The notes under the pieces are model-generated. The model worked only from the letters and a program-made list of their open reading frames with translations. It did not search any database and had not been told where the DNA came from. The translations under genes and the position numbers were made by a program. This document shows, one piece after another, positions 9,811 through 29,058 of a stretch of DNA of 32,893 nucleotides; position 1 is the first letter of the stretch; every line of letters starts with the position of its first letter. Origin of the DNA: a virus; IMG/VR virus record IMGVR_UViG_3300035698_025639, positions 1 through 32,893 of that record; one strand, written 5' to 3'.

Positions 9811-10926
9811 TTATTGGTAGTTCTCGATGATACCGGGAATTGCCGTCTCAGTCGATTCGATTTGCGGCACCAGTGCCTTTGCCAATTCTACGTGGCGAGA
9901 GGGGCATCGGTAGCAGATACTGAGCGGAAGTACCTTAGCATCGAGTTTTTCTGTCAGGAGCGAAATCGCGTGGGTGTTCGCGCCACGGAATCCATAGATG
10001 CTTTGGCACCGGTCACCGACAGCGATGATTCGGCCATGGACAGGCTTCGCCATTTTCAACAGGACTTCCATCTGGAGGTTGTTCAAATCCTGCGCTTCAT
10101 CGACCACCACCCAATTGTATTTCTTGATGGGAACATCGTGAATATGAACGTGCCAAATCATATCATCAAAATCGAGCACGTCACGATTTTGCGCGCATTC
10201 TTTCAAGACATGGGGCAAGAGTTCAATGGCAAGTTCAGCGCGTTCAGCGCAACTGAAGTCAATGTTGTATTCTTGGATCATTTGACGCACCACGGCGTTG
10301 TCGCAATACGGTGTGCTTTCTTCCTGTCCAGGATCAACATAAAATCCTATCAAGGTGCTTTTGGCCAGGCTGGCGAGTTTGGTGAGTCGCGTGGTTACTT
10401 CTCTTCGTGTACTCTGTTCGGAATCCGAAACCTCTTTGTCCACGAGGATCTTGACGATGGCTCGTGTTTTTCCACCATCGATTTTCACGATGTGCTCAGA
10501 TTGAATAGCCCGAAGACACAAGGAGTGCATCGTGCCGCAGGTAACGTGGTTGGGAACCTTGGAACCCAACTCATCAGCGATGTGCTTGTTGAAGGCCAGG
10601 AAGACGGAATCTTCAGATTTGGGAAAAAGGTTGGCGGCATGAACCATGGTGGCCGTTTTGCCAGAACCGGCAACGGCTTCCACCACCGCATTTCCACTGC
10701 CGAATTGAATCCAATCGAAAACGTCTTGTTGGTAAGGGGAAGGATTTTCGATTAGCTTTCCAAGGCGCACATTTTCACGGTATGGGCGAAATCCTCGGCA
10801 ATTTGGGAATGAAGAACATCCCCAAAATATTTGATTCGTTTTCCGATTCTTGCGTTGCTTCATGACACGTCCACAATTGGGACATTCGGGCACGTTCGGG
10901 TCAATTTTCGCTCTTGGCTTGGGCAT
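9811..10926 (-). CDS. UvrD/Rep-like SF1 helicase with topoisomerase-type zinc ribbon, N-terminal part
   Basis: 371 residues from ATG 10926, which matches the leader shared with the 27483 gene. An N-terminal zinc ribbon (CPNCG...CSSFPNC) of the topoisomerase I C-terminal type precedes the helicase: Walker A AVAGSGKT (~85), Walker B/motif II VVVDEAQDL, motif III VGDRCQSIYGFRGA and the start of the second domain (CYRCPSRH). It ends at TAA 9811-9813 just before motif IV, where homologues continue. The missing part is in frame downstream (9253-9777). Likely role: DNA unwinding in repair or recombination next to RecA and SSB. The in-frame stop makes function uncertain. Confidence 0.75.
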   Translation of the reverse strand: MPKPRAKIDPNVPECPNCGRVMKQRKNRKTNQIFWGCSSFPNCRGFRPYRENVRLGKLIENPSPYQQDVFDWIQFGSGNAVVEAVAGSGKTATMVHAANLFPKSEDSVFLAFNKHIADELGSKVPNHVTCGTMHSLCLRAIQSEHIVKIDGGKTRAIVKILVDKEVSDSEQSTRREVTTRLTKLASLAKSTLIGFYVDPGQEESTPYCDNAVVRQMIQEYNIDFSCAERAELAIELLPHVLKECAQNRDVLDFDDMIWHVHIHDVPIKKYNWVVVDEAQDLNNLQMEVLLKMAKPVHGRIIAVGDRCQSIYGFRGANTHAISLLTEKLDAKVLPLSICYRCPSRHVELAKALVPQIESTETAIPGIIENYQ

Positions 10927-10954
10927 CTTTAGTTCCTTTCGGTTTGGCCTCACT
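10924..10954 (-). repeat. Partial third copy of the shared 5' leader
   Basis: 31 bases identical to 27481-27511, including the ATG and AAAGGAAC ribosome binding site of the helicase gene. It is the gene-proximal part of the 114-bp leader repeat, without the promoter half. The GAGGCC/AAAGGC segment may form a small stem. Confidence 0.75.
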
Positions 10955-10992
10955 CAGCCTTTTTGGTTACTTGTTTTTGTTCGCTTCGTGGA

Positions 10993-11339: not shown

Positions 11340-11453
11340 GTTCCTTTCGGTTTGGCCTCACTTGGCCTTTTGACTCACTCGATTCAACTAAACTATAATT
11401 AGTATAACGTATTCTTTTTCCAAAAGTAAAGTCTTTTCTCAACTTATTTTCAA
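11340..11453 (-). repeat. 114-bp perfect direct repeat, copy A (promoter leader)
   Basis: Identical base for base to 27489-27602. It spans a promoter, the 5' untranslated leader and the ribosome binding site of the 11334 gene, and starts just after the stop of the RecA-like gene. Perfect identity over non-coding sequence in a compact genome suggests recent duplication or selection for co-regulation. Confidence 0.95.
11401..11430 (-). promoter_or_regulatory. Promoter in leader copy A
   Basis: Minus-strand -35 TTTACT (11425-11430) and -10 TATACT (11401-11406) with 18-base spacing in an AT-rich stretch, followed by the leader and the AAAGGAAC ribosome binding site of the 11334 gene. It is a good sigma70-like match apart from the -35 third and last bases. 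The same promoter drives the 27483 gene. Confidence 0.65.
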
Positions 11454-11457
11454 GAAA

Positions 11458-12555
11458 TCAATATTTGGTTTTTCGCTTGGGTTTCATGGCCTTTTCAATA
11501 CCGTTCCAACATTTTTCCACGATTTGCTTAAGACGTTTCTCCAGATTCTCTGATTCGATTTTCTGAATCAGCTTCTCCCGAGTACACGTCAATTCAAACT
11601 CTTTGGCCACGATAGATTGTTTGCTTTTCTTCCACCATTCCTCATCGACCAGGAAATCAACACAAGTTCCGATGTCATCAATTCCATATTCGGGATAGAT
11701 GTCAATTTCAACGTTCCGATTTTTGCCGGTCAATCGGTTTTTTTTCCCCTTGATCAAGACGTTGATTCCGGTCTGGCGTTTCTTCCCCTGGACTATTTTG
11801 CTGATAGTTCCACAAACGCTACACCAGAGTTCTAGGGTAGCGTAAAATTTCAACGCTCTTCCACCGGAGCGTGTTTTCTTTTCCATCCCCATTCCTAAGT
11901 TATCCCGAGTCTGGCTGATGATGATAAGGATGGAACCGGTGTCCCGGAGTCCTGTGAGAATCTGACGCAAACCTTCGGAATTTTTTTTTGCCTTTCCATC
12001 TCCATAGGAACCAGCTTCATCTCCCCGTTTTCCTTTCCCACGGCGCACGCGTTTGTGAGCTTGGAATTTGTCACCTTCATAAACGGAAGTTAAACCATCC
12101 ATTGAGTCCAGAACGAAAATGAAAGGGCGTTTCACTTGTAGAGCATCATCTAAGTGATCATAAAAATCCTCAATCGTTTCACTGAAAACCGGCTCACCCT
12201 CTTCGGTGATCGAGGGGTATTCAATTTTGTCAGCTACTTGTTGGCCGAACAAGCCCACCAAATCCATGTTGCATCCATCTTCAACGTTATCGTAGATGAG
12301 ACGATAATTTTTGAACCCACGATTTTGCATCGCTTCAGCAAAACACGTCATGGACAAAAACGTTTTTCCACTGGTGGAATCTCCCACAAGAAAATAGTAT
12401 TTGCCAGCAACCAATCCGCCATGACGGCTTCCACTACAGGCCAGGTCCAGAAGGGTGGAACCGGTGGACAACAAATCCTCTTTTTCAAATGGAGTGGTAT
12501 TGGTACGGGTTTTTGCTGCGTCTTCGATTTGTTGGACTTGGTCTTTCGTGTTCAT
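11458..12555 (-). CDS. RecA/UvsX-like recombinase
   Basis: 365 residues. RecA-fold ATPase: Walker A GDSTSGKT (58-65), Walker B FIFVLDS (145-151), a basic loop around 165-190, then IIISQTRDNLGMG and the GGRALKFYATLELW segment typical of phage and archaeal RecA-like proteins. A CSVC Cys pair at 245-248 is unusual, and KKNRLTGKNRNVEIDI (271-286) matches the conserved C-terminal core strand. The protein should form filaments on single-stranded DNA and drive strand exchange, with SSB and the UvsY-like protein encoded just upstream. Ribosome binding site GAAAGG. Confidence 0.85.
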   Translation of the reverse strand: MNTKDQVQQIEDAAKTRTNTTPFEKEDLLSTGSTLLDLACSGSRHGGLVAGKYYFLVGDSTSGKTFLSMTCFAEAMQNRGFKNYRLIYDNVEDGCNMDLVGLFGQQVADKIEYPSITEEGEPVFSETIEDFYDHLDDALQVKRPFIFVLDSMDGLTSVYEGDKFQAHKRVRRGKGKRGDEAGSYGDGKAKKNSEGLRQILTGLRDTGSILIIISQTRDNLGMGMEKKTRSGGRALKFYATLELWCSVCGTISKIVQGKKRQTGINVLIKGKKNRLTGKNRNVEIDIYPEYGIDDIGTCVDFLVDEEWWKKSKQSIVAKEFELTCTREKLIQKIESENLEKRLKQIVEKCWNGIEKAMKPKRKTKY

Positions 12556-16584: not shown

Positions 16585-16979
16585 TCACAAACTCCACGAT
16601 GTTTCTGAAGTGTTTTCCGATCCACGTTGGACTGAGCAACGCTGCCCAAAGACAAATCGAGTTCCCACGTCAAAATGGCAAGATGCCAAAGCAGGTTTCC
16701 CAGTTTAATTTTCGCTTTTCTCTTGAATTCTTCGGAGATGGTTCCTTTGTTTTTCAGAATGTCTTGTTGAAGTTCTCGACTGAATAAAGTCAATTCATGA
16801 GCCATCCCCATGGTTGGAAAAACAGGTCGTGCTATTTTGGTTGTGTTCTCCCGAATCAATTGGGCTTCTTCAGACAGGCCCATCTTCTCCAATTGAAAAG
16901 CAACCGCATTTTCGAGTTCTGCGCAAGGCACGGTGTCTTGAACTCGGGTTTGGTAGGCGTTCAAGGAAAGGTTATTCAT
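16581..16979 (-). CDS. MazG-like protein, possibly lacking catalytic residues
   Basis: A 132-residue all-helical protein with MazG/NTP-pyrophosphohydrolase layout: LNAYQTRVQ near the N-terminus, MGLSEEAQLIRE (~33-44) as the first metal-binding helix and IKLGNLLWHLAILTWELDLSL (91-111) for the ELGDxLW helix, then VAQSNVDRKTLQKHRG. The second motif has K and N in place of the usual E and D, so metal binding and hydrolysis are doubtful. The gene lies between the exonuclease and polymerase genes with ATGA overlaps on both sides, as if co-produced with the replicase. A structural or nucleotide-binding role is possible. Confidence 0.65.
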   Translation of the reverse strand: MNNLSLNAYQTRVQDTVPCAELENAVAFQLEKMGLSEEAQLIRENTTKIARPVFPTMGMAHELTLFSRELQQDILKNKGTISEEFKRKAKIKLGNLLWHLAILTWELDLSLGSVAQSNVDRKTLQKHRGVCE

Positions 16980-18172
16980 GATTTCATCAATTCCTTCTGG
17001 CGTTCCGCCACTTGAAATTCCAATAAACTATCCAGACCGTTGTACAGCAACAAGTCCTTGATATCTATCTCGTGAATTCGATTCATTTCATTCGCGGAAT
17101 CGGATTGAAGCAAATGCGTTACATGGCTGCTATAATCTCCGATTCCGAGCAGAGTGAAGGCTTGAAATTTCACCGATGTTATGCCTGTACGATTGTCTAG
17201 ACAATGGGCTGCTAACATCGTGTCGAAATCCCAAGGGAAAACGGGGTGCCCGAGTTTCTTTCTGGTCCACCGTTCTTCAAATTTTAGATTGGAAGCAATC
17301 TTATGAAGATTGGGGTTCCGAAGTACACGAGATATTCCACCCCATAGTCCCTTGGTTACCGGGAAGGCAAAGGTGTCTTCTCCTTCAAAGCAAAATGAAA
17401 CGGAAACAATCTGCTGTTCTTGTCGTTCTGGTTTGAGTCCTGTGGTCTCATAATCGAAAGCCAGTAGACCAGATTTCTTCAACAAGTCTTTCAGGCGCAA
17501 TTTCGCCATACGTTCTTGCTGAATTATCTCCACTTCTGCTTCCAATTCCTTCAACGTAGGAACCCCCAATGGTCTTCGTTCCATCGTCAGAGCACTCCGA
17601 AGATGATCCATCATGATTCGTCTCATCAAAGGATTCTCTTTTTTGTCGATGAAATCCTGTGGATGAAACGTAGGGCACACCCAAGCACCATATTCCTGAA
17701 TTGGAATCTTCCATCCCACCCATCGCCCAATCGGCCCAAGTGCTTTTTTCCACAAGGGTTTCAAAAGACTATGGATGGCGTTTTCTCCCAGAGGGATAAT
17801 CACTGATGGTTCTTGTTCCTTGATGAATTTGAATATCGTTGGGCGACAGGAATCTATATGCTTCCCTTTCACTTTTCCTTGTGGTGGCCTGCAAAGAACG
17901 GCATGCCCCAACCCACATTCTTCCAGGTCCACACCCATTTCGTCTAACATATCCCGTAAGACTTCGCCAGCTTCATGTATAAAATGGGCACCTTGTCTAT
18001 CCTCATCTTCAGACGGAGTATCGGACAGGAAAAGTATTTTGCGCTTCCCTACGCCACAGGGAGCCATTTTGGGAGAATGGCATTTCTTTGCCAATCCGCA
18101 TAAACCGCATCGTGCCAAAGTGGGTTGTTTTTTCTCTTGGCTGCGCCATGAGCTTTTGTGGAAAAAAGTCAT
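16976..18172 (-). CDS. Uracil-DNA glycosylase-like domain fused to 3'-5' exonuclease
   Basis: 398 residues. The N-terminal ~200 residues resemble family-4 uracil-DNA glycosylase with a 4Fe-4S site: Cys 22, 25, 94 and 109 (CGLC, LCRPP, SCRP), the first motif LSDTPSEDED (49-58) in place of GEAPGxxE, and FHPQDF (169-174) for the HPS motif. The C-terminal ~180 residues are a DnaQ/Pol I-type proofreading domain: exo I FDYETTG (D240, E242), exo II ASNLKFEE (with E where D is usual) and exo III YNGLD (Y377, D381). It is probably the proofreading half of a split family A replicase. The altered GEAPG motif means glycosylase activity is uncertain. Confidence 0.85.
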   Translation of the reverse strand: MTFFHKSSWRSQEKKQPTLARCGLCGLAKKCHSPKMAPCGVGKRKILFLSDTPSEDEDRQGAHFIHEAGEVLRDMLDEMGVDLEECGLGHAVLCRPPQGKVKGKHIDSCRPTIFKFIKEQEPSVIIPLGENAIHSLLKPLWKKALGPIGRWVGWKIPIQEYGAWVCPTFHPQDFIDKKENPLMRRIMMDHLRSALTMERRPLGVPTLKELEAEVEIIQQERMAKLRLKDLLKKSGLLAFDYETTGLKPERQEQQIVSVSFCFEGEDTFAFPVTKGLWGGISRVLRNPNLHKIASNLKFEERWTRKKLGHPVFPWDFDTMLAAHCLDNRTGITSVKFQAFTLLGIGDYSSHVTHLLQSDSANEMNRIHEIDIKDLLLYNGLDSLLEFQVAERQKELMKS

Positions 18173-18175
18173 TGG

Positions 18176-19195
18176 TTATTCCGGCTCAACCAAGGCCACA
18201 ACAAATTGAATATTGTCCGTCTCAATCTTCATGCGATGTTTGCTGGAAATGAGAACGGTGGGTGTCCGTTGGAGTATCTCCAACAAGAATTTGGGATGGA
18301 TATCAAAAGCCATGTCGTCACTCGTCCACGTGATTTTCCCACGTTCACGATACCAACCGGAGTCCTTCCGGCTTTCCACTTCCACTTGGCCCTTGGATAA
18401 TTTAATTCGGATTTTCGGTTCCTCATCCGTAGACATCATGATGGTAGTCCGTTGGATGATTCCTCCCAAAGTCTTCGGCAATTCCACTTCCTCTGCATCT
18501 TCCATCACGAACAATCTGTCCAACCCTTCATGGAATTGTTCGTAAGAAGACCGAATAGAAATAATCTGTTTATCTACCAGTCGGAAATGAACCCAACCTT
18601 CTCCCATAGATACGGCCTTGATATCCAGACCGTTCAGTTTCATCACGGAGATGGCAGGTAGTAAAGCTTCCTTGGTGAATCCGGTCTTGAGTTCTGCGCG
18701 GAACATGCGCCAATTGTCACATGCCTCTACCATGTCTTCCGTAACGTGGACCACGGTGGTCAATTCCTGAGTGATATCGTTGCCGCAAGTCCGTGCAGCC
18801 TGTTGGAGCATTTCGGCTGTTTCCGCACCAATCTTTTTGAACTTGGGTGGAGCAGGAACTGCATCATAGGGCAGAAGGATTTCGTTGAAAGAGTTGATGC
18901 CGGCTTGCTTGCTTTTTCCCTTCAAGATGAGTTGGCCACCTTTCACGGAAACGTCTACTTCCTTGTCGGGAAGTTTTTCAATCAAACGGAGAAATTCGTC
19001 AGCCAAAACGGCAACGTTGACATCTTCCATTCCAGCCGGAACTGGACCTTGCGTTTTAATTTCGTCATCAAAGGTGACGATTTGCCCGTCCACGAAAACG
19101 AAGGCATTCGACTGTTCCAGGGTTTCACCACGGCTGGGAGTTCCCAGTCGGGCAAAACGCAAGGCGTCCAAGAGGTTTTCACGATTGATTTTCAT
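18176..19195 (-). CDS. DnaN-like sliding clamp
   Basis: A 339-residue protein with the three-repeat beta/alpha pattern of bacterial beta clamps: MKINRENLLDALRFAR at the N-terminus, VFVDGQIVTFDDEI, later CDNWRMFRAEL, DRLFVMEDA, and a C-terminal end FVVALVEPE. Length (339) is close to phage beta-clamp-like proteins. It should tether the polymerase to DNA and be loaded by the AAA+ protein at 14252. The stop is 3 bases before the exonuclease gene. The upstream leader (19219-19277) is structured. Confidence 0.85.
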   Translation of the reverse strand: MKINRENLLDALRFARLGTPSRGETLEQSNAFVFVDGQIVTFDDEIKTQGPVPAGMEDVNVAVLADEFLRLIEKLPDKEVDVSVKGGQLILKGKSKQAGINSFNEILLPYDAVPAPPKFKKIGAETAEMLQQAARTCGNDITQELTTVVHVTEDMVEACDNWRMFRAELKTGFTKEALLPAISVMKLNGLDIKAVSMGEGWVHFRLVDKQIISIRSSYEQFHEGLDRLFVMEDAEEVELPKTLGGIIQRTTIMMSTDEEPKIRIKLSKGQVEVESRKDSGWYRERGKITWTSDDMAFDIHPKFLLEILQRTPTVLISSKHRMKIETDNIQFVVALVEPE

Positions 19196-19587: not shown

Positions 19588-20475
19588 TCAGTGACTGTAG
19601 ATTCGTTGAACGATATGTGGATTCAATTTCATCTTGAAACGGGCCAGATTCTCGTTGCCCAAATCTCCACCATCATTCACCCATTGTTTTTCTTGGACCC
19701 AAGGGGAAGTATAAAAACAGTGGCGCAAATATTCGTTCAAGAACGGTGTTCCATCATCCAAGCAATATCGATAAATGGCGTGAGCCCAATTAGTATCTCC
19801 CACGTTTATACCTACCAATTGATCATCTTGAAACAACCCCCAACGAAGTGAACCATAAAAAAGAAAACGAATCATCGTGTCTAGGTCTTGTATTTCTTTC
19901 CCTTCAGACCATTTCAACAGCAAAGTCTCAATTGTTTCTTCGCCTTCTCTTTCATCCAATCTCCGATATGTGAGCTTCCCACTGCATCGAATAGGATACT
20001 TGCGGATGTTCCTCCGATACGTTTTCCATTTTCCACCTTCCAGATTCAAGAATTGATGAGAATCGTATATGTATTGGTGATCCAGAAATTGAATGCCCTT
20101 TTTGTCTGGCCAACCAGCCCATATCCGTGGAGGTTGAGAAGGATTCTCAGAAAAATAAAGTGGAGGAAGGAACCATTCAGAATTATCAAGGCTTGGATCC
20201 ATCCACCCCCATTCTTCTTTCTGTTCAGTCCATTCCAGTTCTGCCATCACCACGTATTCTGGAGTCATCCAGAAATTAGGAATTTTTCCCGTTCTTTTCA
20301 AGATTGTCCAATAGTCCTGAGGATTTGGATTTGGAAGGTTTGGTATTACCACACCCTGGAGGCAAGTGGCCTTTTGCTGGTTTGCCTGATTTAATTCGGT
20401 TGATGAGTGCTTTGCTGACCCCACCGCTTTTTCGGCTTTTTCCGCCCATGGTTTATTCTCCTGTTTGGCGCACAT
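19588..20475 (-). CDS. GNAT/DUF2156-like acyltransferase (tentative)
   Basis: 295 residues. The C-terminal ~130 resemble GNAT-fold proteins of the DUF2156 type (as in aminoacyl-lipid transferases): a ETIETLLLKWSEG helix, GLFQDDQLVGINVGD strand pair, and VNDGGDLGNENLARFKMKLNP near the end, the conserved loop-helix of that family. The N-terminal ~60 residues are low-complexity and polar. It would transfer an acyl or aminoacyl group to an unknown acceptor. Its neighbours are a glycosyltransferase-like protein and radical SAM enzymes, so a modified nucleotide or DNA base is one possible acceptor; this is inference. Confidence 0.6.
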   Translation of the reverse strand: MCAKQENKPWAEKAEKAVGSAKHSSTELNQANQQKATCLQGVVIPNLPNPNPQDYWTILKRTGKIPNFWMTPEYVVMAELEWTEQKEEWGWMDPSLDNSEWFLPPLYFSENPSQPPRIWAGWPDKKGIQFLDHQYIYDSHQFLNLEGGKWKTYRRNIRKYPIRCSGKLTYRRLDEREGEETIETLLLKWSEGKEIQDLDTMIRFLFYGSLRWGLFQDDQLVGINVGDTNWAHAIYRYCLDDGTPFLNEYLRHCFYTSPWVQEKQWVNDGGDLGNENLARFKMKLNPHIVQRIYSH

Positions 20476-20674
20476 TGATTCTTCTCTTCAATTTTCGTTT
20501 GATCGAAAAAAGAAAATCTTGTTGTTGAGGCGTCATAGAGCATATAGCGTTTTCCAGAAAGAAAAGTAACGCCAAGACTTCTGGAAATTTCAGTTGGATT
20601 CTCATGGTTCCGTTCTCGTTAGCATCAATCCAACTCAAATTGGATTGGTTGTTTATGATGATTCGTTCATTCAT
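20453..20674 (-). CDS. Small hypothetical protein (73 aa)
   Basis: 73 residues, overlapping the glycosyltransferase gene by 8 bases upstream and the acyltransferase gene by 23 downstream. It has a beta-rich N-terminus and a basic C-terminal helix (SIKRKLKRRINVRQ). No clear ribosome binding site, which fits coupling to the upstream gene. Family not recognised. Confidence 0.6.
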   Translation of the reverse strand: MNERIIINNQSNLSWIDANENGTMRIQLKFPEVLALLFFLENAICSMTPQQQDFLFSIKRKLKRRINVRQTGE

Positions 20675-21485
20675 CGTGACACGTTTTCTTTGTTAGTTGT
20701 CCCAATAGTCCAACAGGTTCGTGTGTTTCACTTTGTTGTTCCATCCATTTTTTCCAAAGTTGCCATCTGGTGCGCAAGTCATTTCTTTGTGCATCATATT
20801 CTATGACATTAAAACCCAAACTTTCATTTGCTATTCTGATAGCACGTTTGATTTTTTCTTTCGTCTTGAAACCTGTTGTTCCACCACATTCATAACGGAC
20901 TTTGGTAAACTTCAGAGGTTTATATATCCAAGTGGGGTTGTTTGGGTAGAAATGTTTTCTGAAACGCAGAATGAGTTCTTGGTCTTCTATGTAATATAAA
21001 TCAGGATTGAATGGGATTCTGAACAAGATTTTCGTATCAAGGAAAGCAACGACACCAGCACATTTTGTGGATGGATATAGGTCTGGTTGTTCGGTTGCAT
21101 TTTGAGAAAGATCATAGTATGAATAATGTCCAGCGACATAATGGATGTGTTTTCTTGTTCGCAAAATGTCTAAGACTTCTGGAACAACGTCGATGTTGAA
21201 CTTCGCATTATCATCAGAATATCCAACATATCGATATTTCTTTTCATGTGCGTAGTCGCCCAGAAATCTTCTTGAGTATCCGGTTCCTTTTCCAGATTCT
21301 GGAAGAGTCAAGAGAGTAATATTGTCTTGTTTGCCATATTCTTTGATGGCTTTTTCGTATGCGGCTGCATCTTCCTTTTCTACAGCTATGGCATAATCCC
21401 ATTCTTCACGAAAATGATTTTCCAACCATCTCTTGAACACAATGGGTCTTTGTTTTGATGGCACGACTATCAGCAATTGTTTCAT
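20667..21485 (-). CDS. GT-A-fold glycosyltransferase, possibly TAGT-like
   Basis: 272 residues. N-terminus LLIVVPSKQRPIVFKRWL is typical of GT-A enzymes. YVGYSDDNAKFNID (~86-99) provides the DxD-like metal/nucleotide-sugar site, and YYIEDQELILRFRKHF matches the ED acceptor-side motif. These features recall the TET-associated glycosyltransferases (TAGT) that modify phage DNA bases, but no TET/JBP dioxygenase or hydroxymethylase gene is visible here. It may glycosylate DNA, another nucleotide derivative or a protein. It follows the clamp-like gene by 5 bases. Confidence 0.7.
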   Translation of the reverse strand: MKQLLIVVPSKQRPIVFKRWLENHFREEWDYAIAVEKEDAAAYEKAIKEYGKQDNITLLTLPESGKGTGYSRRFLGDYAHEKKYRYVGYSDDNAKFNIDVVPEVLDILRTRKHIHYVAGHYSYYDLSQNATEQPDLYPSTKCAGVVAFLDTKILFRIPFNPDLYYIEDQELILRFRKHFYPNNPTWIYKPLKFTKVRYECGGTTGFKTKEKIKRAIRIANESLGFNVIEYDAQRNDLRTRWQLWKKWMEQQSETHEPVGLLGQLTKKTCHDE

Positions 21486-21490
21486 TCAGA

Positions 21491-22216
21491 TTATTCCTCG
21501 TGACACGTTCCCAATTCATCGTATCGGCACTTGGAAAGTAACACACGCATTGGCATCGTCTTCTTGGGATTAGTGACAGCGATGAAGCCATCAGGAAGGA
21601 GATGGAAATTTAAGTCCGTAGCGAAAGCAAACAAAGCAAAGAAATCGTTAGTGCGAAGACCAAAGGTGCCAAAATCTTCCAGGTTTTTCTTTTGCTTTAT
21701 CAGACCACCTTTGTGTCTTCTGGGACAGATGGAGATAACGGCACCACTGTAGATATTTCGCTGAACAAATTGAAGGCGCCCATCTTCCTTGATGGAGAGT
21801 TCAATGTGACTGAGACTTTCATCGAGTAACTGCAAAATTTCCGTAGGAACCAAGGCTGTGTTCTGTGGTTTAATTTTGTAGCTACGGAACATTTGATCTA
21901 CTTTCTCGGGAGTCATATCTGGCGTTCTACAGGATTTGATTCGCTCAAACCCCGTAGTGTTCTGGATGAACTGAATCCGCCCATTATGGACCTCAATGGT
22001 GTCGCTGTCATAATCGTTGGCGTTGAAGGAAACCGGCTCATCAAAATGAAGTCTGTCCACTTCGGAACGAAGAGGAAAACACATCATGACGGTGTGGTCT
22101 TGGTTCAAGATATACACACGGTCATTCAGGCAATAAATTGTAGAGCGTAAACGTCCACTTTGTTCCAGTGCGACGGCGTGCGCAAAAATGTCTTCCAATC
22201 GTTTCGGTATCTTCAT
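21491..22216 (-). CDS. Second clamp-like protein (gp45/PCNA-like fold, tentative)
   Basis: A 241-residue protein with a strand-rich, two-halved pattern: DRVYILNQDHTVMMCF and IEVHNGRIQFIQ in the first half, ILQLLDESLSHIELSIKEDGRLQF in the second, and NDFFALFAFATDLNFHLLPDGFIAV near the end. This strand/helix order resembles T4 gp45-type clamps. No catalytic motif is seen. Ribosome binding site AGGAG lies before ATG 22216. It sits among radical SAM and glycosyltransferase genes, away from the DnaN-like clamp. It could recruit modification enzymes to DNA; the fold call is by eye. Confidence 0.5.
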   Translation of the reverse strand: MKIPKRLEDIFAHAVALEQSGRLRSTIYCLNDRVYILNQDHTVMMCFPLRSEVDRLHFDEPVSFNANDYDSDTIEVHNGRIQFIQNTTGFERIKSCRTPDMTPEKVDQMFRSYKIKPQNTALVPTEILQLLDESLSHIELSIKEDGRLQFVQRNIYSGAVISICPRRHKGGLIKQKKNLEDFGTFGLRTNDFFALFAFATDLNFHLLPDGFIAVTNPKKTMPMRVLLSKCRYDELGTCHEE

Positions 22217-22228
22217 TTGTTTCTCCTG

Positions 22229-23653
22229 TTATTCTTCGATGCCTTCAAGTAAATCTTGTCGGAAATCCTTGCCAGAATTGTATCCCCAAATGATTCCATC
22301 TTTATCCCAACCCGCAGCTTCAATGCCAGGAGCCCAGCCATGGGAGTAGGCCATGTTGCCTTCAAAATTCCATAGTGCGTGAACGTCGTTCTCCAAGGAC
22401 TGAGAAAGGAAACCACCAGTAGAGTAGACCCAATCCCGGAACATAGACCAAGAGGATACTTTTTCGGGAGCGTTCTCCATAATGAAGTGAGCAGCCATAA
22501 CGGAACATCCGTTATTGAATCCTGATTTGTCAAACCAATTTCCTACTTCGCAGCAAATTGAGTCATCGTTGGACGGAGCATTCCCCATGTCGAAGGTGGA
22601 ACAACTGAAACCTTCTTCGCGGAAAATATCCATAAATGCTCCCAAGAGAATAGAACCCAAACCTTGCGAATCGCAACCAATCAGAAAAATCCGTTCCCAG
22701 TCGATGTTACTGTTGATAAAAGCCTGTCGAATCCCCTGGTTGTTGGCGCTGTAGGAGTAGGTGTCAAACGTGATATGGGTGACTCCGATTTCCCTCAAAT
22801 CCCCGATATACTTACGAACGAATTCCGGCTCATCACAAACGTAGGGCAAAAAGGGTTCAATGCGTGCCACTACTTGGATGCCTTCACCAACCAAAGTTTC
22901 CATGGCCTGTATTCGTTCCTGGTAGGATGGCGCACCAGGTTCAATGTTTTTGAGAATTCGATTATCAGCAGAAATGAGAGTGACGTGAACTGCAGCACGC
23001 CCAGGATTGCTACTTAAAGCGTCCAGGTAGGCATCTTTGGCTACCAGGCTGGGCTTAGTGTTGATCATCGTTGGATAAGCCTGCTCCGCCAAATACCGAA
23101 GCAATTCCAGGCTCACGCCTTTTTCCTCTTCGGCAGAAATGAAATCCTCAAACCGGATTCCGAAACGCACCGGCATTTCCATGGCGAATGCTTTTCCAAC
23201 ATCGTTGTTTATGCTGTGCGGGTCTTTCCCCCGGAGGGTCATGTATTTGTCCATTTCACGTTTGAATTTGTCAGGATTACAAGACCGAAATCCCATGGTC
23301 TTGGAGTTGTCAAAAAAAGCGGTGTACAGGGATGCGCGGAAGGCATTGGCAAAACAGTATTTGCAATTGAACGGGCAAGTGAGCCCATCCCATACATCGA
23401 GGTTCAACGGCATCGGACAGGCCGCAGCGCGCACGGAAATCTCAGCAAAGGAATTGATTTCGTCTTGGTTCAGAAGACGTTCTTGCTTGACCCATTTGCG
23501 TTGATTCAGTTTGAATTCGCTGTAGTCCTTTTTTCGGCCTTTCTCCCGTACCATTCCTTGGTGCTTGCGTTGATGAAATAATTGCGTCATTCGTGGAACC
23601 ATCTTGGCTACACGGCTGCGCAAATCGTAGTATCGTTCAAAGGCTGTCATCAT
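22229..23653 (-). CDS. SplB-like radical SAM enzyme 1
   Basis: 474 residues. The radical SAM 4Fe-4S motif CPFNCKYC (93-100, CX3CX2C) follows LDVWDGLT. Later NPGRAAVHVTLIS, NIEPGAPSYQERI and GIQVVARIEPFLPYV match the SplB (spore photoproduct lyase-like, COG1533) barrel. The C-terminal part has NAPSNDDSICC, which recurs in the second radical SAM gene. SplB-like enzymes are known to reverse thymine lesions, but most members have unknown substrates. It overlaps the AKR stop (ATGA). An N-terminal basic extension of ~60 residues could contact nucleic acid. Confidence 0.82.
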   Translation of the reverse strand: MMTAFERYYDLRSRVAKMVPRMTQLFHQRKHQGMVREKGRKKDYSEFKLNQRKWVKQERLLNQDEINSFAEISVRAAACPMPLNLDVWDGLTCPFNCKYCFANAFRASLYTAFFDNSKTMGFRSCNPDKFKREMDKYMTLRGKDPHSINNDVGKAFAMEMPVRFGIRFEDFISAEEEKGVSLELLRYLAEQAYPTMINTKPSLVAKDAYLDALSSNPGRAAVHVTLISADNRILKNIEPGAPSYQERIQAMETLVGEGIQVVARIEPFLPYVCDEPEFVRKYIGDLREIGVTHITFDTYSYSANNQGIRQAFINSNIDWERIFLIGCDSQGLGSILLGAFMDIFREEGFSCSTFDMGNAPSNDDSICCEVGNWFDKSGFNNGCSVMAAHFIMENAPEKVSSWSMFRDWVYSTGGFLSQSLENDVHALWNFEGNMAYSHGWAPGIEAAGWDKDGIIWGYNSGKDFRQDLLEGIEE

Positions 23654-24645
23654 TCATATTCCTCTTCGATTTCTTCTATATACTCGGAAGTGAGCCGCAT
23701 ATGTCTGGCGTTTGTGTTTTGCTTTGCATGTTCCAAAGAGTTTGTGCGAGGAATAGGCACAACTCCTTTATGGCTCATCAACCAAGCCAACGCTACTTGT
23801 GAAGCAGTTCCATCTGTTCGATGGGCCACATTTTCTAAGATTGGATGATTGAACTTTTTGAAGTTTTGGCCGAAAGGACTATAGGCCAAAACGCAGATTT
23901 TGTGCTTCTGACAATACGGCAATAACACGGATTCTATTCGTCTATCTTGTAGATTGTATTGCATCTGAAGAAAACGAATTTTCAATCCAATTCGAGAAAG
24001 CATCAGTTGTGCCATCAAGAGCATATCTAAACTACAATTCCCTATTCCAACACTGATGGCATTTCCGTGTAGGACTTCTTGGCCCATATTCTTGATGGCT
24101 GTTGGATATTTGTCATTGGGAAAATGTAGTTGGATATGAAAAGGGAACCCCAGTTTCTTTTGGCTTCGCTGAATGGCTTTTTTCATTGCGGAAGGACTCA
24201 TGTGGTCTCTTCGCACCTTGGTCAATAATTGGGTTTCTTTTAACCCATTTATTTCTTGAAAAACTTTTCCCAATGCTATTTCTACTCGACCATAACCATA
24301 CCCTTCAGCAGTGTCGATTACGGGAATTCGTTTCTCAATAGCGTGTTGGATAATTTGCGGATCATATTTCCATCCGTATGTGCCAAGACCCACTCCTTTT
24401 CGGAAAATCCATTTTGAGTTTGGTTCTGAATCGAATTCTCGATTCATCAATTCGAGTCTTCTCAAACTGTATTGAATAATTCGTTGCTTATATTTTTCCA
24501 AGGCTTGAGGAAGATACATGAAACGGATATTGAGTCCCCACATAGAGCCATAGAGCGTGTCTAAACTCAATTGACTGAGTTCATGTAGGCTGGTAGTATT
24601 GTTCTTGAATTCCAATAATTCTTGAGTGGTTTCTTGCCAATCCAT
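23650..24645 (-). CDS. Aldo/keto reductase with N-terminal extension
   Basis: 331 residues from ATG 24645 (a TTG six bases upstream is the alternative). The first ~80 residues are helical and not part of the AKR barrel. The barrel follows: GVGLGTYGW, VIDTAEGYGYGRVEIALGK (Asp and Tyr of the tetrad), LLTKVRRDHMS (Lys), IQLHFPNDKYP (His), then VGIGNCS, QYNLQDRR and LAYSPFG. These are the standard NAD(P)H-dependent aldo/keto reductase sites. Substrate unknown. It is coupled by ATGA to the radical SAM gene, suggesting sequential chemistry. AKRs are unusual in phages. Confidence 0.82.
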   Translation of the reverse strand: MDWQETTQELLEFKNNTTSLHELSQLSLDTLYGSMWGLNIRFMYLPQALEKYKQRIIQYSLRRLELMNREFDSEPNSKWIFRKGVGLGTYGWKYDPQIIQHAIEKRIPVIDTAEGYGYGRVEIALGKVFQEINGLKETQLLTKVRRDHMSPSAMKKAIQRSQKKLGFPFHIQLHFPNDKYPTAIKNMGQEVLHGNAISVGIGNCSLDMLLMAQLMLSRIGLKIRFLQMQYNLQDRRIESVLLPYCQKHKICVLAYSPFGQNFKKFNHPILENVAHRTDGTASQVALAWLMSHKGVVPIPRTNSLEHAKQNTNARHMRLTSEYIEEIEEEYE

Positions 24646-24647
24646 TT

Positions 24648-24731
24648 TCAATAACCAAGTAGATGTTGTTTCAATTCTTTGGAATCCTGTTCCATAATAG
24701 ATGCTGTTCTGTTGTAGGATACTTTTTTCAT
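24648..24731 (-). CDS. Possible 27-residue ORF in the gap before the AKR gene
   Basis: The 120-base gap 24652-24771 holds an ORF from ATG 24731 to TGA 24648 coding 27 polar residues. Its stop is just before the AKR ATG. There is no strong ribosome binding site. The gap is otherwise AT-rich, with no clear promoter or terminator. It may be a leader peptide or chance. Confidence 0.2.
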   Translation of the reverse strand: MKKVSYNRTASIMEQDSKELKQHLLGY

Positions 24732-24771
24732 TCTTAGATTTTTTTCATTTTCATTTTATTTCCCTCTTGTT

Positions 24772-25518
24772 CTAATCGAAGAAACCTTTGCTTTGCTTCT
24801 TTTTCAGTTTGAAAGTCTTTCCATCTCGTTTCAACAACATCTCAGATGGAGGTATATGAAGAATGGCGCCAGGCTTTTTTTCTTCAAGAAGGATAGTAGA
24901 AGCATTCATGAAACTACTCACAACTGTGATGCGTTTCTTGATTCCGTTCTTTGCTAAATGCCCATCTAACAAAGTGTAATAATCTTCCGCTTTGTCAATT
25001 CCGTAATGGCGCATATTTCCAAACTTGAAACCGAAGCAAGCACCATCAGCAATGATGAAATATTTGCAGATAGAACCCCATCGTTTCAATGTGTCCATCC
25101 ACGCATCAATGATGTGAAGAGTGAAGTGGTCGAAGTCTAGCAAGACTATGTCACATTTTGTTTTTGGAGTCCATTCTTTGATGTTGTGATTGGTTATCTT
25201 TGCATCAGGAAAATTGCGTTGCAGGTACGGATTACAAGAAGCATCTTCCTCATTCAAAAGCAAATGGCATTTTGTCCAATGATTACGAAAAACAGCTCCC
25301 CAAAAACCGGCACGCGCAATACCATCGATGATTTTTACATGGCCTGAATCCCGAGGAATGGAAATGTGCTCACAAACGGTGTCCAATGTTCGACAGGTTT
25401 CTGCAACATCTCGCCAAGGCACTACTTGTCTGGGAGTTCTAGTTTTGCGAGATTTTGTTAAGTCACGGCCTTTGTATTCGGAGATGGACAACGTTTGGGA
25501 ACCAATGGTGTATATCAT
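24772..25518 (-). CDS. Methyltransferase-like Rossmann protein
   Basis: 248 residues. VKIIDGIARAGFWGAVFRNH resembles the SAM-binding motif I, LLLNEEDASCN motif II, DAKITNHNIKEW motif III and CDIVLLDFDHFTL motif IV. There is no NPPY or PC catalytic motif of DNA amino- or C5-methyltransferases. The C-terminus is Lys-rich (KLKKKQSKG). The fold call is fair; activity is uncertain. Its ATG overlaps the stop of the second radical SAM gene (ATGA). It may alkylate, or bind SAM, as part of the accessory pathway. Confidence 0.6.
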   Translation of the reverse strand: MIYTIGSQTLSISEYKGRDLTKSRKTRTPRQVVPWRDVAETCRTLDTVCEHISIPRDSGHVKIIDGIARAGFWGAVFRNHWTKCHLLLNEEDASCNPYLQRNFPDAKITNHNIKEWTPKTKCDIVLLDFDHFTLHIIDAWMDTLKRWGSICKYFIIADGACFGFKFGNMRHYGIDKAEDYYTLLDGHLAKNGIKKRITVVSSFMNASTILLEEKKPGAILHIPPSEMLLKRDGKTFKLKKKQSKGFFD

Positions 25519-26564
25519 AGACCGGCATCCTTCATAGTGTAGTACTTTTCACTAGTTCCATGGAGGATAGTGTGAGCACGTTTCTTGTCTTCTTCGGTTC
25601 CAATACTTTCCCATGTGTTTTCTTCCAATTCCGTCTTCGTATTACCAGCTTGAATCCCACGACGCCAAGCGTGTGTATTGAAAGTGAAAGCGTTGGGGAC
25701 ATCTACTCCGCAACACGTGTTGGTTCCAAAACAGAAATTGCGCGGAGCGTTTACAAAATCAGGGCACCCTAATGTGATGTTTTCTTCCTCGGCAATTTGA
25801 CAAAGTTTTCTTTGGATTTGTCGCCAATTAGAATTCTGGTTGGCCGTCCACACTCGTTCAATATCCACTCCCACGCTATGGAGATTTTTCATAATCCAAT
25901 CGTTGGCGTGGAGATTGTAAGTATTATAGTTTGTTAGTCCAAATCGTTGGAGTTGGTGGAGCGTGGAACGGAATTGAGAAATAGTATGATAACCTGGGAT
26001 GAAAGGTTCTCCACGTATTCCTACTTTTGCGCCTTCTTCGATGAAACGTTTGGCAAGACGTAATCGTTGAGTAGGTGGATCAGTGCGTGAATTCTCGAAC
26101 AATGTCCAATCGGAATTTCCACCAGGCGTGACTTCAATCAGTAGGGTCAAATTTTTGCCTTTGCGAAACAGGTCTATATCACGGAAGGCAAGAGAAGGCC
26201 ACTTGGTGAGAAGGACAGCAGACCAAGATTGCTCGACCAGAAATTCCAAGATGTTTCGCGTCACTCCCATCTCAAATTCGATGGGTTGATATGGATCAGC
26301 TTTGCGTCCGATGAACAATGCTTTTTTCTGTTTGAGAGCATGGGAAAGTGGGGAACGGGGTTTCATAGTCAAACCCCGTTCCATCCGCTTTATCACTTTG
26401 TCTGGATTCACTGTCCGTTGTTCTGTACCCCAAATGTGGTTCAGTTTTCTACTTGGGCAATGAAGACATCCAGCTTCGCAGTACCAGTAGCATTCGAGTG
26501 CCAAGGGCAAAGGACAATTCAAGTGATCGGAACGTATGCGAAATGGTGTTTTGTACTCCTTCAT
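25515..26564 (-). CDS. SplB-like radical SAM enzyme 2
   Basis: 349 residues from ATG 26564, which overlaps the previous stop (ATGA); the frame runs to 26609 without support. Radical SAM cluster CEAGCLHC (29-36, CX3CX2C). ALFIGRKADPYQPIE, VLLTKWPSLAFRDIDLF, LLIEVTPGG and GIRGEPFIPGYH are SplB family signatures. NAPRNFCFGTNTCC near the C-terminus matches NAPSNDDSICC in the first radical SAM gene, so the two are likely paralogues with an extra cysteine site. The substrate is unknown. Confidence 0.82.
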   Translation of the reverse strand: MKEYKTPFRIRSDHLNCPLPLALECYWYCEAGCLHCPSRKLNHIWGTEQRTVNPDKVIKRMERGLTMKPRSPLSHALKQKKALFIGRKADPYQPIEFEMGVTRNILEFLVEQSWSAVLLTKWPSLAFRDIDLFRKGKNLTLLIEVTPGGNSDWTLFENSRTDPPTQRLRLAKRFIEEGAKVGIRGEPFIPGYHTISQFRSTLHQLQRFGLTNYNTYNLHANDWIMKNLHSVGVDIERVWTANQNSNWRQIQRKLCQIAEEENITLGCPDFVNAPRNFCFGTNTCCGVDVPNAFTFNTHAWRRGIQAGNTKTELEENTWESIGTEEDKKRAHTILHGTSEKYYTMKDAGL

Positions 26565-27100
26565 GATGCGGAGTAACAGCCATCTTCCTTCACAGCAACG
26601 ATTCCCCAAGCCAAGGCTGCAAAAAGGAGACCATGGGTTTGGTGTACCGTTTGGAGCAAATTGTCTTTTCCATCGTTTTCAACGAGCATCTCGTTGGCTT
26701 GGGCTGCAATTTCTTCCACTGACATTCGATCTGTCTTGGTGAAAGAAGAAATCACTTTGCAAATGGCATCTCCCCGTTTCATTTGCTTCTTGGCCTTCTT
26801 GGTCTTCTTGGTCTTGGGCTTGTCTTCGGCTCCGTCTCCACCATCCTCGGCAGCAGGTGCGGCATCTTCGGTGGCCTTCTTGGTCTTCTTTTTGGTCTTT
26901 GAAATTTCGTCAGTGGAAACGTCAAATCCGAGTTCCCGAAGAAGTTTACATTCCATCGAGGACAGGTCTTTCGGTACTTCATCCACGTCGAAATAGCGTT
27001 GAATTTTCTTGCATGCTCGATCAGTGGCGATTTTCTCCGTGTACGGAGCACCAATCTTTTTGAGAATATCAATGGCTACAGCACGCTTTGTGGTCTTCAT
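26561..27100 (-). CDS. Lysine-rich linker protein with two helical domains
   Basis: 179 residues. The N-terminal ~60 residues are helical; a central ~50-residue linker is rich in Lys, Ala, Thr, Glu and Pro (KTKKTKKAKKQMKRG) and the C-terminal ~60 residues look like a winged-helix-type domain (RMSVEEIAAQANEML, HGLLFAALAWGIVAVKEDG). AGGAGAAGAATT precedes ATG 27100. Basic linkers with a helical domain suggest DNA binding, but the function is unknown. It is first in the transcript from the 27136 promoter and coupled to the second radical SAM gene. Confidence 0.75.
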   Translation of the reverse strand: MKTTKRAVAIDILKKIGAPYTEKIATDRACKKIQRYFDVDEVPKDLSSMECKLLRELGFDVSTDEISKTKKKTKKATEDAAPAAEDGGDGAEDKPKTKKTKKAKKQMKRGDAICKVISSFTKTDRMSVEEIAAQANEMLVENDGKDNLLQTVHQTHGLLFAALAWGIVAVKEDGCYSAS

Positions 27101-27488: not shown

Positions 27489-27602
27489 GTTCCTTTCGGT
27501 TTGGCCTCACTTGGCCTTTTGACTCACTCGATTCAACTAAACTATAATTAGTATAACGTATTCTTTTTCCAAAAGTAAAGTCTTTTCTCAACTTATTTTC
27601 AA
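27489..27602 (-). repeat. 114-bp perfect direct repeat, copy B (promoter leader)
   Basis: Identical to 11340-11453. It begins 40 bases after the stop of the DnaB-like gene and ends next to the start of the 27483 gene. It carries the same promoter: -35 TTTACT (27574-27579), -10 TATACT (27550-27555). Confidence 0.95.
27550..27579 (-). promoter_or_regulatory. Promoter in leader copy B
   Basis: Same promoter as in copy A: TTTACT-18-TATACT on the minus strand, followed by an identical leader with GGCC-type short inverted repeat and AAAGGAAC ribosome binding site. It drives the 27483 gene. Confidence 0.65.
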
Positions 27603-27642
27603 AGAATTTTCAAGGGGATAATACTCAATGAAATCAAGGCTA

Positions 27643-29058
27643 TCATAACGAAGCGCAATAAAAAGCACGGCCAATCGGCAAACATTGACCCACCCATAGG
27701 CATCTCCGTGCACTGAAAGGACTCTCCCGTAGAGCAATCCAATTCAATCGCATGACGTTTATAATTTTTTCCTCTTCAGTTTGATTCAAACCTAGCATTC
27801 CGGTCACGTGCGCCAGCTTGCGTTTGTCCTCAGAGAAATTTTTCATGGACATCGTGCGCGTATCGTAACTGGCGGCATCGGCCTGAGTCGGTGCGATGAC
27901 TAGACAATGCCGTTCTTGACTTAGTTTTCGCATCGCTTTCCATGAGGCATTCACTTGGTCTCTGGGGAGTGCACGAGAGTCTTCCGGTGCGAGAATATCA
28001 GCATAATCTATCACGATGACATCCGGCACAAAGTCTTCTATGACTTCCCACCTGTCCAAAATAATTGAGATGCCTTGTACATTGATCGAGGAATTGGGAT
28101 GAATAGAAACCTTGATGTAGGATTTTTTGGGGCTCAATCCGTATCCACGCATCAATCTCTTACAGGCTTTCAAGCATGCGCTTTTCGTCAAAGGTCGCGT
28201 GAATTTTCGTTCCTTCGTTTCAATTTCAGGCTCTTCCTCCATGTCTTCCGGTGGAGTTATTCCGATGGGTACTTGGTAAGTCTTACAGAGATGTGGCAAC
28301 GATGGACGCTGAGCCCAATACATTCCTAAACGTATCATGACTTGATGTTCGCTCAAATCACCCACCTGAAAGAAGGCCACCTTGCGCCTTTCCATGAGTG
28401 CACGAACAACAAATTCAATACACCAAAAAGTCTTGCCGCGTTTTTCCGGTCCTTGAATTCCAATCAGTCCATCTCGGGTCAATCCTGGATTCAGAAACTT
28501 TCCTGCATCACCAGGGAACGTGATAAGGGGCTCGGCTTCGACACTGAAGGCCCGTTCCCATGCGTCTGCGTCCCGTAGTGGGTCTATACCAGTCCCAGCC
28601 AGGACTTCTATCGGCTGAAAGTTTAGAACAGCTTCCTGGGCGTTCTCGCCATTCCCTGTGGTAAGTGAAAAATCTATGTTCTCTTGAAGTTTTTGAAGTC
28701 CTTTTTTTGTCAAGTAGGTTCGGAGATGGTCAAGCAAATACGGAACGTTTAACGGCTCATTCGATTCCTCATCACTCAGGTCTTCCAGTAGGTCTGCGAT
28801 GAGGTCTGCTTCATTACCTTCAATTTTATCTCCTTGGTCTTCCTCCCAAGCAGAAAAAGTGGTTTGAATATTTCGACCTGGAGAGTCTTGATATTCTCGG
28901 AAGTATTCCAAACACCATCCCGCTATTCGATGAAAATGAGGAACATCAATCAAATCCATGTCTAATACCATGGATGCCTGGGAAAGGAATTCTTTGGAGG
29001 TTATGAGCGCAATCAGCAATTGACGTTCAATGTATGATTCAATTTTCTTCCGCTTCAT
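27643..29058 (-). CDS. DnaB-like replicative helicase
   Basis: 471 residues. The N-terminal ~140 residues are helical, as in DnaB. RecA-fold C-terminal domain: Walker A GIQGPEKRGKTFW (~200-212), Walker B DVIVIDYADIL, sensor VIAPTQADAASYD and C-terminal arginine-finger-like region MLGLNQTEEEKIINVMRLNWI. It should form the ring that unwinds the replication fork, with the primase (29905) and loader/initiator (29055) encoded just upstream. The ATG overlaps the stop of the initiator gene. It ends shortly before leader copy B. Confidence 0.85.
   Translation of the reverse strand: MKRKKIESYIERQLLIALITSKEFLSQASMVLDMDLIDVPHFHRIAGWCLEYFREYQDSPGRNIQTTFSAWEEDQGDKIEGNEADLIADLLEDLSDEESNEPLNVPYLLDHLRTYLTKKGLQKLQENIDFSLTTGNGENAQEAVLNFQPIEVLAGTGIDPLRDADAWERAFSVEAEPLITFPGDAGKFLNPGLTRDGLIGIQGPEKRGKTFWCIEFVVRALMERRKVAFFQVGDLSEHQVMIRLGMYWAQRPSLPHLCKTYQVPIGITPPEDMEEEPEIETKERKFTRPLTKSACLKACKRLMRGYGLSPKKSYIKVSIHPNSSINVQGISIILDRWEVIEDFVPDVIVIDYADILAPEDSRALPRDQVNASWKAMRKLSQERHCLVIAPTQADAASYDTRTMSMKNFSEDKRKLAHVTGMLGLNQTEEEKIINVMRLNWIALRESPFSARRCLWVGQCLPIGRAFYCASL

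Follow-up and report, generated by a model that had tools for sequence, protein, structure and literature searches.

A conserved radical SAM, clamp and acyltransferase cassette in the replication operon of uncultured phages, likely devoted to DNA base hypermodification

The DNA of phage M6 carries 5-(2-aminoethyl)deoxyuridine (PMC6449724), and the gene set of M6-like phages comprises a hydroxymethylase, Nmad5, aGPT-Pplase1, a kinase, a radical S-adenosylmethionine (SAM) enzyme (rSAM), a pyridoxal phosphate (PLP) enzyme and aGPT-Pplase2 (PMC9476957). In this study, we compared with such systems a block of nine minus-strand open reading frames (ORFs) at positions 19588-27100 of IMG/VR record IMGVR_UViG_3300035698_025639, a linear virus contig of 32.9 kb (32,893 nt) called the window hereafter. 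In thymidine hypermodification, PLP enzymes and flavin adenine dinucleotide (FAD) enzymes are reportedly alternative tailors of a glycine-bearing thymidine, with the radical SAM enzyme said to act as an isomerase, the PLP enzyme as a decarboxylase and the flavin enzyme as a lyase.

The block is one version of a viral cassette that is conserved in some 60 further contigs of uncultured phages. We consider it likely, with a probability of roughly 0.72, that this cassette, which forms part of the replication operon, serves to hypermodify DNA bases. The two radical SAM proteins are named RSAM1 and RSAM2, the second clamp with a PCNA fold CLAMP, the FemX/DUF2156-fold acyltransferase GNAT, the methyltransferase-like protein MT, the aldo/keto reductase AKR and the FAD oxidoreductase module DAO; L numbers designate relative loci. 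The conserved order is DnaB, acidic/Lys-rich protein, RSAM2, middle module, RSAM1, CLAMP, GNAT, β clamp and polymerase, and low-complexity proteins like the acidic/Lys-rich one occupy the same place in many relatives. Counting only loci with enough sequence in view, GNAT lies downstream of RSAM1 in 55/55 loci, CLAMP in 51/55 and the β clamp in 48/50. RSAM2 is found upstream of RSAM1 in 44 of 51 loci, and the seven without it are DUF362 loci in which another radical SAM protein takes its place. Near-duplicates exist among the contigs, so that these counts are not independent. Searches begun from CLAMP found RSAM1 upstream in all 45 loci, CLAMP never occurring without it, and those begun from GNAT found RSAM1 upstream in 51 of 52. 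The sole exception, L277, keeps DnaB, GNAT and the β clamp and has neither radical SAM genes nor CLAMP; by eye, a small pre-TAGT protein fused to a TAGT-like glycosyltransferase (L277:3647-4789) occupies the place of the radical SAM genes. The arrangement is not a matter of chance, because its order is kept in dozens of other contigs. The original prediction, a reading of the window's letters alone, had described coupled minus-strand genes between a DnaB-like helicase and a sliding clamp, and both points were confirmed (ATGA overlaps at 26564, 25518 and 23653); the co-occurrence in other phages that it proposed to look for was also found.

Pattern scans and tblastn searches using single window proteins returned no close relatives. 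Ten were recovered by searching the DNA with a degenerate pattern of the radical SAM motif, and an alignment-based scan yielded 63 viral loci (RSAM1 47%–63% identity) as well as three contigs from metagenome bins. Among 50,697 phage records no close match to the core genes was obtained, with zero matches for CLAMP and GNAT and one distant generic fragment for RSAM1. Matches of the window radical SAM proteins in faecal phages were set aside as generic relatives in unrelated gene surroundings. The AKR matches among phage records look like ordinary cellular enzymes. The window is probably a fragment, and a gene missing from it alone carries little meaning.

The middle module of the cassette is exchangeable among relatives, being a PLP enzyme (the commonest, 32 loci), a FAD oxidase with AKR (the rarer DAO module, 4 loci) or, as in the window, MT with AKR; PLP enzyme and AKR occur together in one locus only. 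The cassette PLP enzyme shares 38.8% identity with phage M6 gp52 over 99% of its length and also matches 64 other records, mostly M6/YuA-like. In M6, FP1 and Pam3 the PLP gene adjoins a gene annotated as 'DNA repair photolyase' (gp53 in M6), and its neighbourhood in Pam3 also holds aGPT-Pplase genes. The DAO module matches PaMx11 gp47 (hidden Markov model, HMM, E 4e-41) and has homologues in 18 phage records only. Thus, the PLP and FAD alternatives of M6 and PaMx11 recur as alternatives within the cassette, and their homology to these tailoring enzymes connects the cassette with the modification of DNA bases. The modules switch repeatedly along the RSAM1 tree (16 changes, against a minimum of 5 and a shuffled mean of 17.9). 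Catalytic residues are intact, the D-Y-K-H tetrad of AKR in 17/17 sequences and the PLP-enzyme lysine in 31/31. An alignment of 14 MT relatives displays a class I SAM methyltransferase pattern, on which the call mainly rests, the match to methyltransferases in the PDB being weak (E 0.006). A C-terminal [PG]LF/GFF tail ends 18/27 MT, MT2, Dam and MTd proteins vs 68/1038, a post hoc count on related sequences, made after the tail had been noticed and therefore a lead rather than a test; such tails, which MT-type proteins share with DNA methylases of phages, may serve to bind a clamp.

The likeness to the M6 system extends to the SplB-like radical SAM gene that adjoins the PLP gene and to the location in a replication region, whereas the early part of the pathway differs. 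Profiles built from M6, Pam3 and FP1 for aGPT-Pplase1, aGPT-Pplase2 and the 5-hydroxymethyldeoxyuridine (5-hmdU) kinase matched none of 27 records, the window included, with positive M6 and PaMx11 controls. These profiles were used in place of HMUDK_hel (PF18723), which gave no match in a search without a positive control. The hydroxymethylase/thymidylate synthase family (PF00303) is almost always absent, occurring in 2/40 relatives in a search set that excluded the window. The missing-gene searches covered records of up to 172 kb, none classed as complete, and a far-diverged or missing gene is possible. What the cassette relatives do carry is a pair of radical SAM enzymes together with a clamp and a transferase of FemX fold. 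The PaMx11 pathway, which combines a FAD enzyme with an acetyltransferase, shares the FAD oxidoreductase with the DAO module, but the cassette enzyme has AKR and a pair of radical SAM enzymes as partners, and the cassette acyltransferase is a different, larger protein of FemX/DUF2156 type. Because the enzymes of the early M6/PaMx11 steps are missing or almost missing, the cassette, judged by its gene content, probably makes an amino-acid-type base modification through a different opening. The simplest reading is that the tailoring half is common to M6/PaMx11 and that RSAM1, RSAM2 and the FemX-fold transferase replace the opening half. The expectation that the pathway would be unlike the described ones gains support from this comparison, in which relatives carry homologues of M6/PaMx11 tailoring enzymes and lack those of the front end.

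Both radical SAM proteins match NCBIfam models of the Rv2578c/PA0069 type, and RSAM1 also matches PF04055 (E 6e-8). They are paralogues (hhalign 97.5%, E 5e-12) with a common layout of a CxxxCxxC motif, a separate earlier Cys and, close to the C-terminus, a pair of Cys residues. RSAM1 has the motif CPFNCKYC with invariant C79, C125, C367 and C368 (51/51 sequences), and RSAM2 the motif CEAGCLHC with invariant C17, C284 and C285 (53/53). While the CxxxCxxC motif and the overall profile are those of the SplB/Rv2578c/PA0069 group, the cassette proteins score far under the curated cut-offs and differ by extra invariant cysteines (C79, C367 and C368; C17, C284 and C285), which may coordinate an additional Fe-S cluster. 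An identity as spore photoproduct lyase was set aside, the model TIGR04070 (photo_TT_lyase) matching just one of ten RSAM1 members, and weakly (E 0.002). An apparent in-frame intein lies exactly at the CxxxCxxC motif of RSAM1 in L161, L168, L170-L174 and L182-L185. A DUF362 protein and a third radical SAM protein occupy the place of RSAM2 in L125, L142, L147, L163, L176 and L180, and this third protein is the best scorer with the M6 gp53 profile (E 2e-8). Another large radical SAM protein, also SplB-like, precedes the β clamp at L134:11754-13265 and L167:12175-13734.

An AlphaFold model of CLAMP (50 sequences; predicted local distance difference test score, pLDDT, 91; predicted template modelling score, pTM, 0.87) has the two-domain fold of PCNA and 9-1-1 clamps (Foldseek E 5e-11 to PCNA; VIA Z 15.6, root-mean-square deviation 3.8, 216 residues), distinct from the neighbouring three-domain β-like clamp. 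The original description of a clamp-like protein was therefore right as far as the predicted fold goes, and since CLAMP stands beside a separate β-like clamp these phages encode two clamps. The GNAT model (51 sequences, pLDDT 87.7) has a predicted tandem-GNAT DUF2156/FemX fold, nearest to 2hqy (Z 20.7, function unknown), with lower matches to MprF/A-PGS/L-PGS (Z 14-15) and then FemX and Sba18/Sbb17 (Z 11-12); its Pfam match to LPG_synthase_C is below cut-off. Because many relatives of this fold use aminoacyl-tRNA, aminoacyl-tRNA is a candidate acyl-group donor for GNAT, and a candidate only.

From this gene content we infer a DNA base as the substrate and the following order of steps. The PCNA-like clamp would ride on newly made phage DNA and recruit the modifying enzymes, after which the radical SAM enzymes and the FemX-fold acyltransferase would build a side chain resembling an amino acid, or rearrange one, on a base that is probably thymine. 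The exchangeable module would then trim or cap this side chain (mostly the PLP enzyme, in a few loci FAD oxidase with AKR, in the window MT with AKR) to give the modified product, which may also receive a sugar where a glycosyltransferase is present, as it is in the window. The new opening perhaps combines radical SAM chemistry with aminoacyl transfer, the cassette's own clamp keeping it on replicating DNA. A narrower version, which we put forward tentatively and regard as rather doubtful, starts from an unmodified DNA base: a SplB-like radical SAM enzyme would activate it (e.g., at the thymine methyl) and the FemX-fold transferase would help to attach the amino-acid side chain on a modification-dedicated clamp, with no need of hydroxymethylation, phosphorylation or an amino acid:DNA transferase. 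If the main reading holds, a group of uncultured phages has kept the tailoring half of the M6/PaMx11 pathways and swapped the first half for radical chemistry, and a second sliding clamp couples DNA modification to replication. It would also supply testable enzymes for direct DNA-base functionalisation, suggest what SplB-like radical SAM proteins of unknown function may do, and provide, in the RSAM1-CLAMP-GNAT signature, a search handle for more hypermodified phages.

Several observations weigh against base hypermodification. The window itself lacks homologues of both the PLP and the FAD enzyme, and it is through the shared core that it counts as a member. RSAM1 and RSAM2 are distant from M6 gp53 (hhalign 80% and 93.5%, respectively), and the radical SAM HMM recovers the Pam3 enzyme at 5e-8 and not that of M6. 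Homologues of GNAT, AKR, MT and CLAMP were not found in the regions of M6, Pam3, FP1 and PaMx11 that were read, no known step gives the first handle on the base, and the contigs may be incomplete.

The original prediction allowed for base modification or lesion repair. Base modification is favored by the PLP and FAD homologues in relatives. As to repair, SplB-like radical SAM enzymes could reverse ultraviolet or radical lesions with an extra clamp delivering them, which would suit the SplB-like grouping of both proteins, the weak spore photoproduct lyase match of one RSAM1 relative and a dedicated 9-1-1-like clamp. We nevertheless judge this quite improbable because reversal of lesions has no use for the exchangeable genes of PLP enzyme, FAD enzyme, AKR, methyltransferase and glycosyltransferase, whose presence stays unexplained, and the PLP and FAD enzymes are homologous to those of thymidine hypermodification. 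The target could instead lie outside the bases, for example in a tRNA, in the Lys-rich protein of the cassette, in a clamp or in a small molecule. The nearest solved relatives of the acyltransferase act on lipids, peptides and antibiotics, and Lys-rich proteins accompany the cassette, but such a target fits poorly with several features: a clamp of PCNA fold is dedicated to the cassette, the genes sit within the replication operon, DNA methylase and TAGT glycosyltransferase genes lie inside or next to some cassettes, and the tailoring enzymes of relatives point to M6 and PaMx11. We hold it to be unlikely.

Another alternative places the glycosyltransferase at the center, glucosylating a hydroxymethyl-pyrimidine, with the other genes as accessories. 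T-even phage TAGTs act on glucosylated hydroxymethylcytosine (PMC13216743), and the window enzyme is a GT-A type match related to them. It is divergent, however, scoring below the cut-offs of PF20691 (TAGT; E 5.7e-5, 23.6 bits against a gathering cut-off of 27.5) and TIGR04440 (E 1.2e-7), and has no hydroxymethylase nearby. TAGT was detected in 3/41 records searched (full-length in L140, L147 and L165), the glycosyltransferase being an optional extra of the cassette and not its central component. With the thymidylate synthase/hydroxymethylase family in 2/40 and TET/JBP in 0/40, the latter in a search without a positive control, TET/JBP-type glucosylation was set aside, and glucosylation as the core function appears very unlikely. 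Other modification genes of these loci, which count in favor of base hypermodification, include N4/N6 methylases between RSAM and the β clamp (8/62 loci). A Mom-family protein adjoins the cassette at L166:13268-14176 (PF25680 E 6e-33), and a putative amidoligase lies between the PLP enzyme and RSAM1 at L132/L133:8517-9431 (PF12224 E 4.5e-7).

Table 1. Genes of the cassette in the window and the two flanking genes.
Feature	Positions	Strand	Remarks
Acidic/Lys-rich protein, 179 aa	26561..27100	-	First cassette gene; no family match
Radical SAM 2, 349 aa, SplB/PA0069-like	25515..26564	-	PA0069 family E 1.5e-14
Methyltransferase-like protein, 248 aa, variable middle module	24772..25518	-	C-terminal tail KGFFD
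Aldo/keto reductase	23650..24645	-	PF00248 E 5.6e-29; ~85-residue N-terminal extension
Radical SAM 1, 474 aa, core enzyme	22229..23653	-	Rv2578c-type match 6e-15
Second sliding clamp, 241 aa, two-domain PCNA/9-1-1 fold	21491..22216	-	Predicted structure
GT-A glycosyltransferase, TAGT-related, 272 aa, optional	20667..21485	-	PF20691, TIGR04440 below cut-off
Small ORF, 73 aa, overlaps glycosyltransferase end	20453..20674	-	No family match
Acyltransferase, GNAT/DUF2156/FemX fold	19588..20475	-	Folded domain from ~residue 46; start uncertain
β-like replicative clamp (flank)	18176..19195	-	PF00712 E 3e-4, PF02768 E 1.5e-3, both below cut-off
DnaB-like helicase (flank)	27643..29058	-	phrog_19 4e-27

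The individual genes are listed in Table 1. AKR probably starts at ATG 24645 and not at TTG 24651. The family profile searches that had been called for returned PF00248, PF04055 and Rv2578c/PA0069-type matches, and the gene families first assigned hold for AKR, the two radical SAM proteins, the clamp and the acyltransferase; the glycosyltransferase stays sub-cut-off and the methyltransferase-like protein has weak profile support. Neither the glycosyltransferase nor the radical SAM proteins had a usable match when their sequences were compared with those of solved structures. The window holds a phage replication half, with recombination genes, RecA-like and SSB-like proteins, a clamp loader, a primase and a SNF2 helicase in addition to the β-like clamp, the DnaB-like helicase and a family A polymerase which is divided over two genes. 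At 16979-18172, a uracil-DNA glycosylase domain is fused to a polymerase 3′-5′ exonuclease (PF03167 E 7e-19). A 119-nt direct repeat, 98% identical between 11340-11458 and 27489-27607 and with a partial copy at 10924-10976, precedes unrelated ORFs and resembles a reused promoter or leader.

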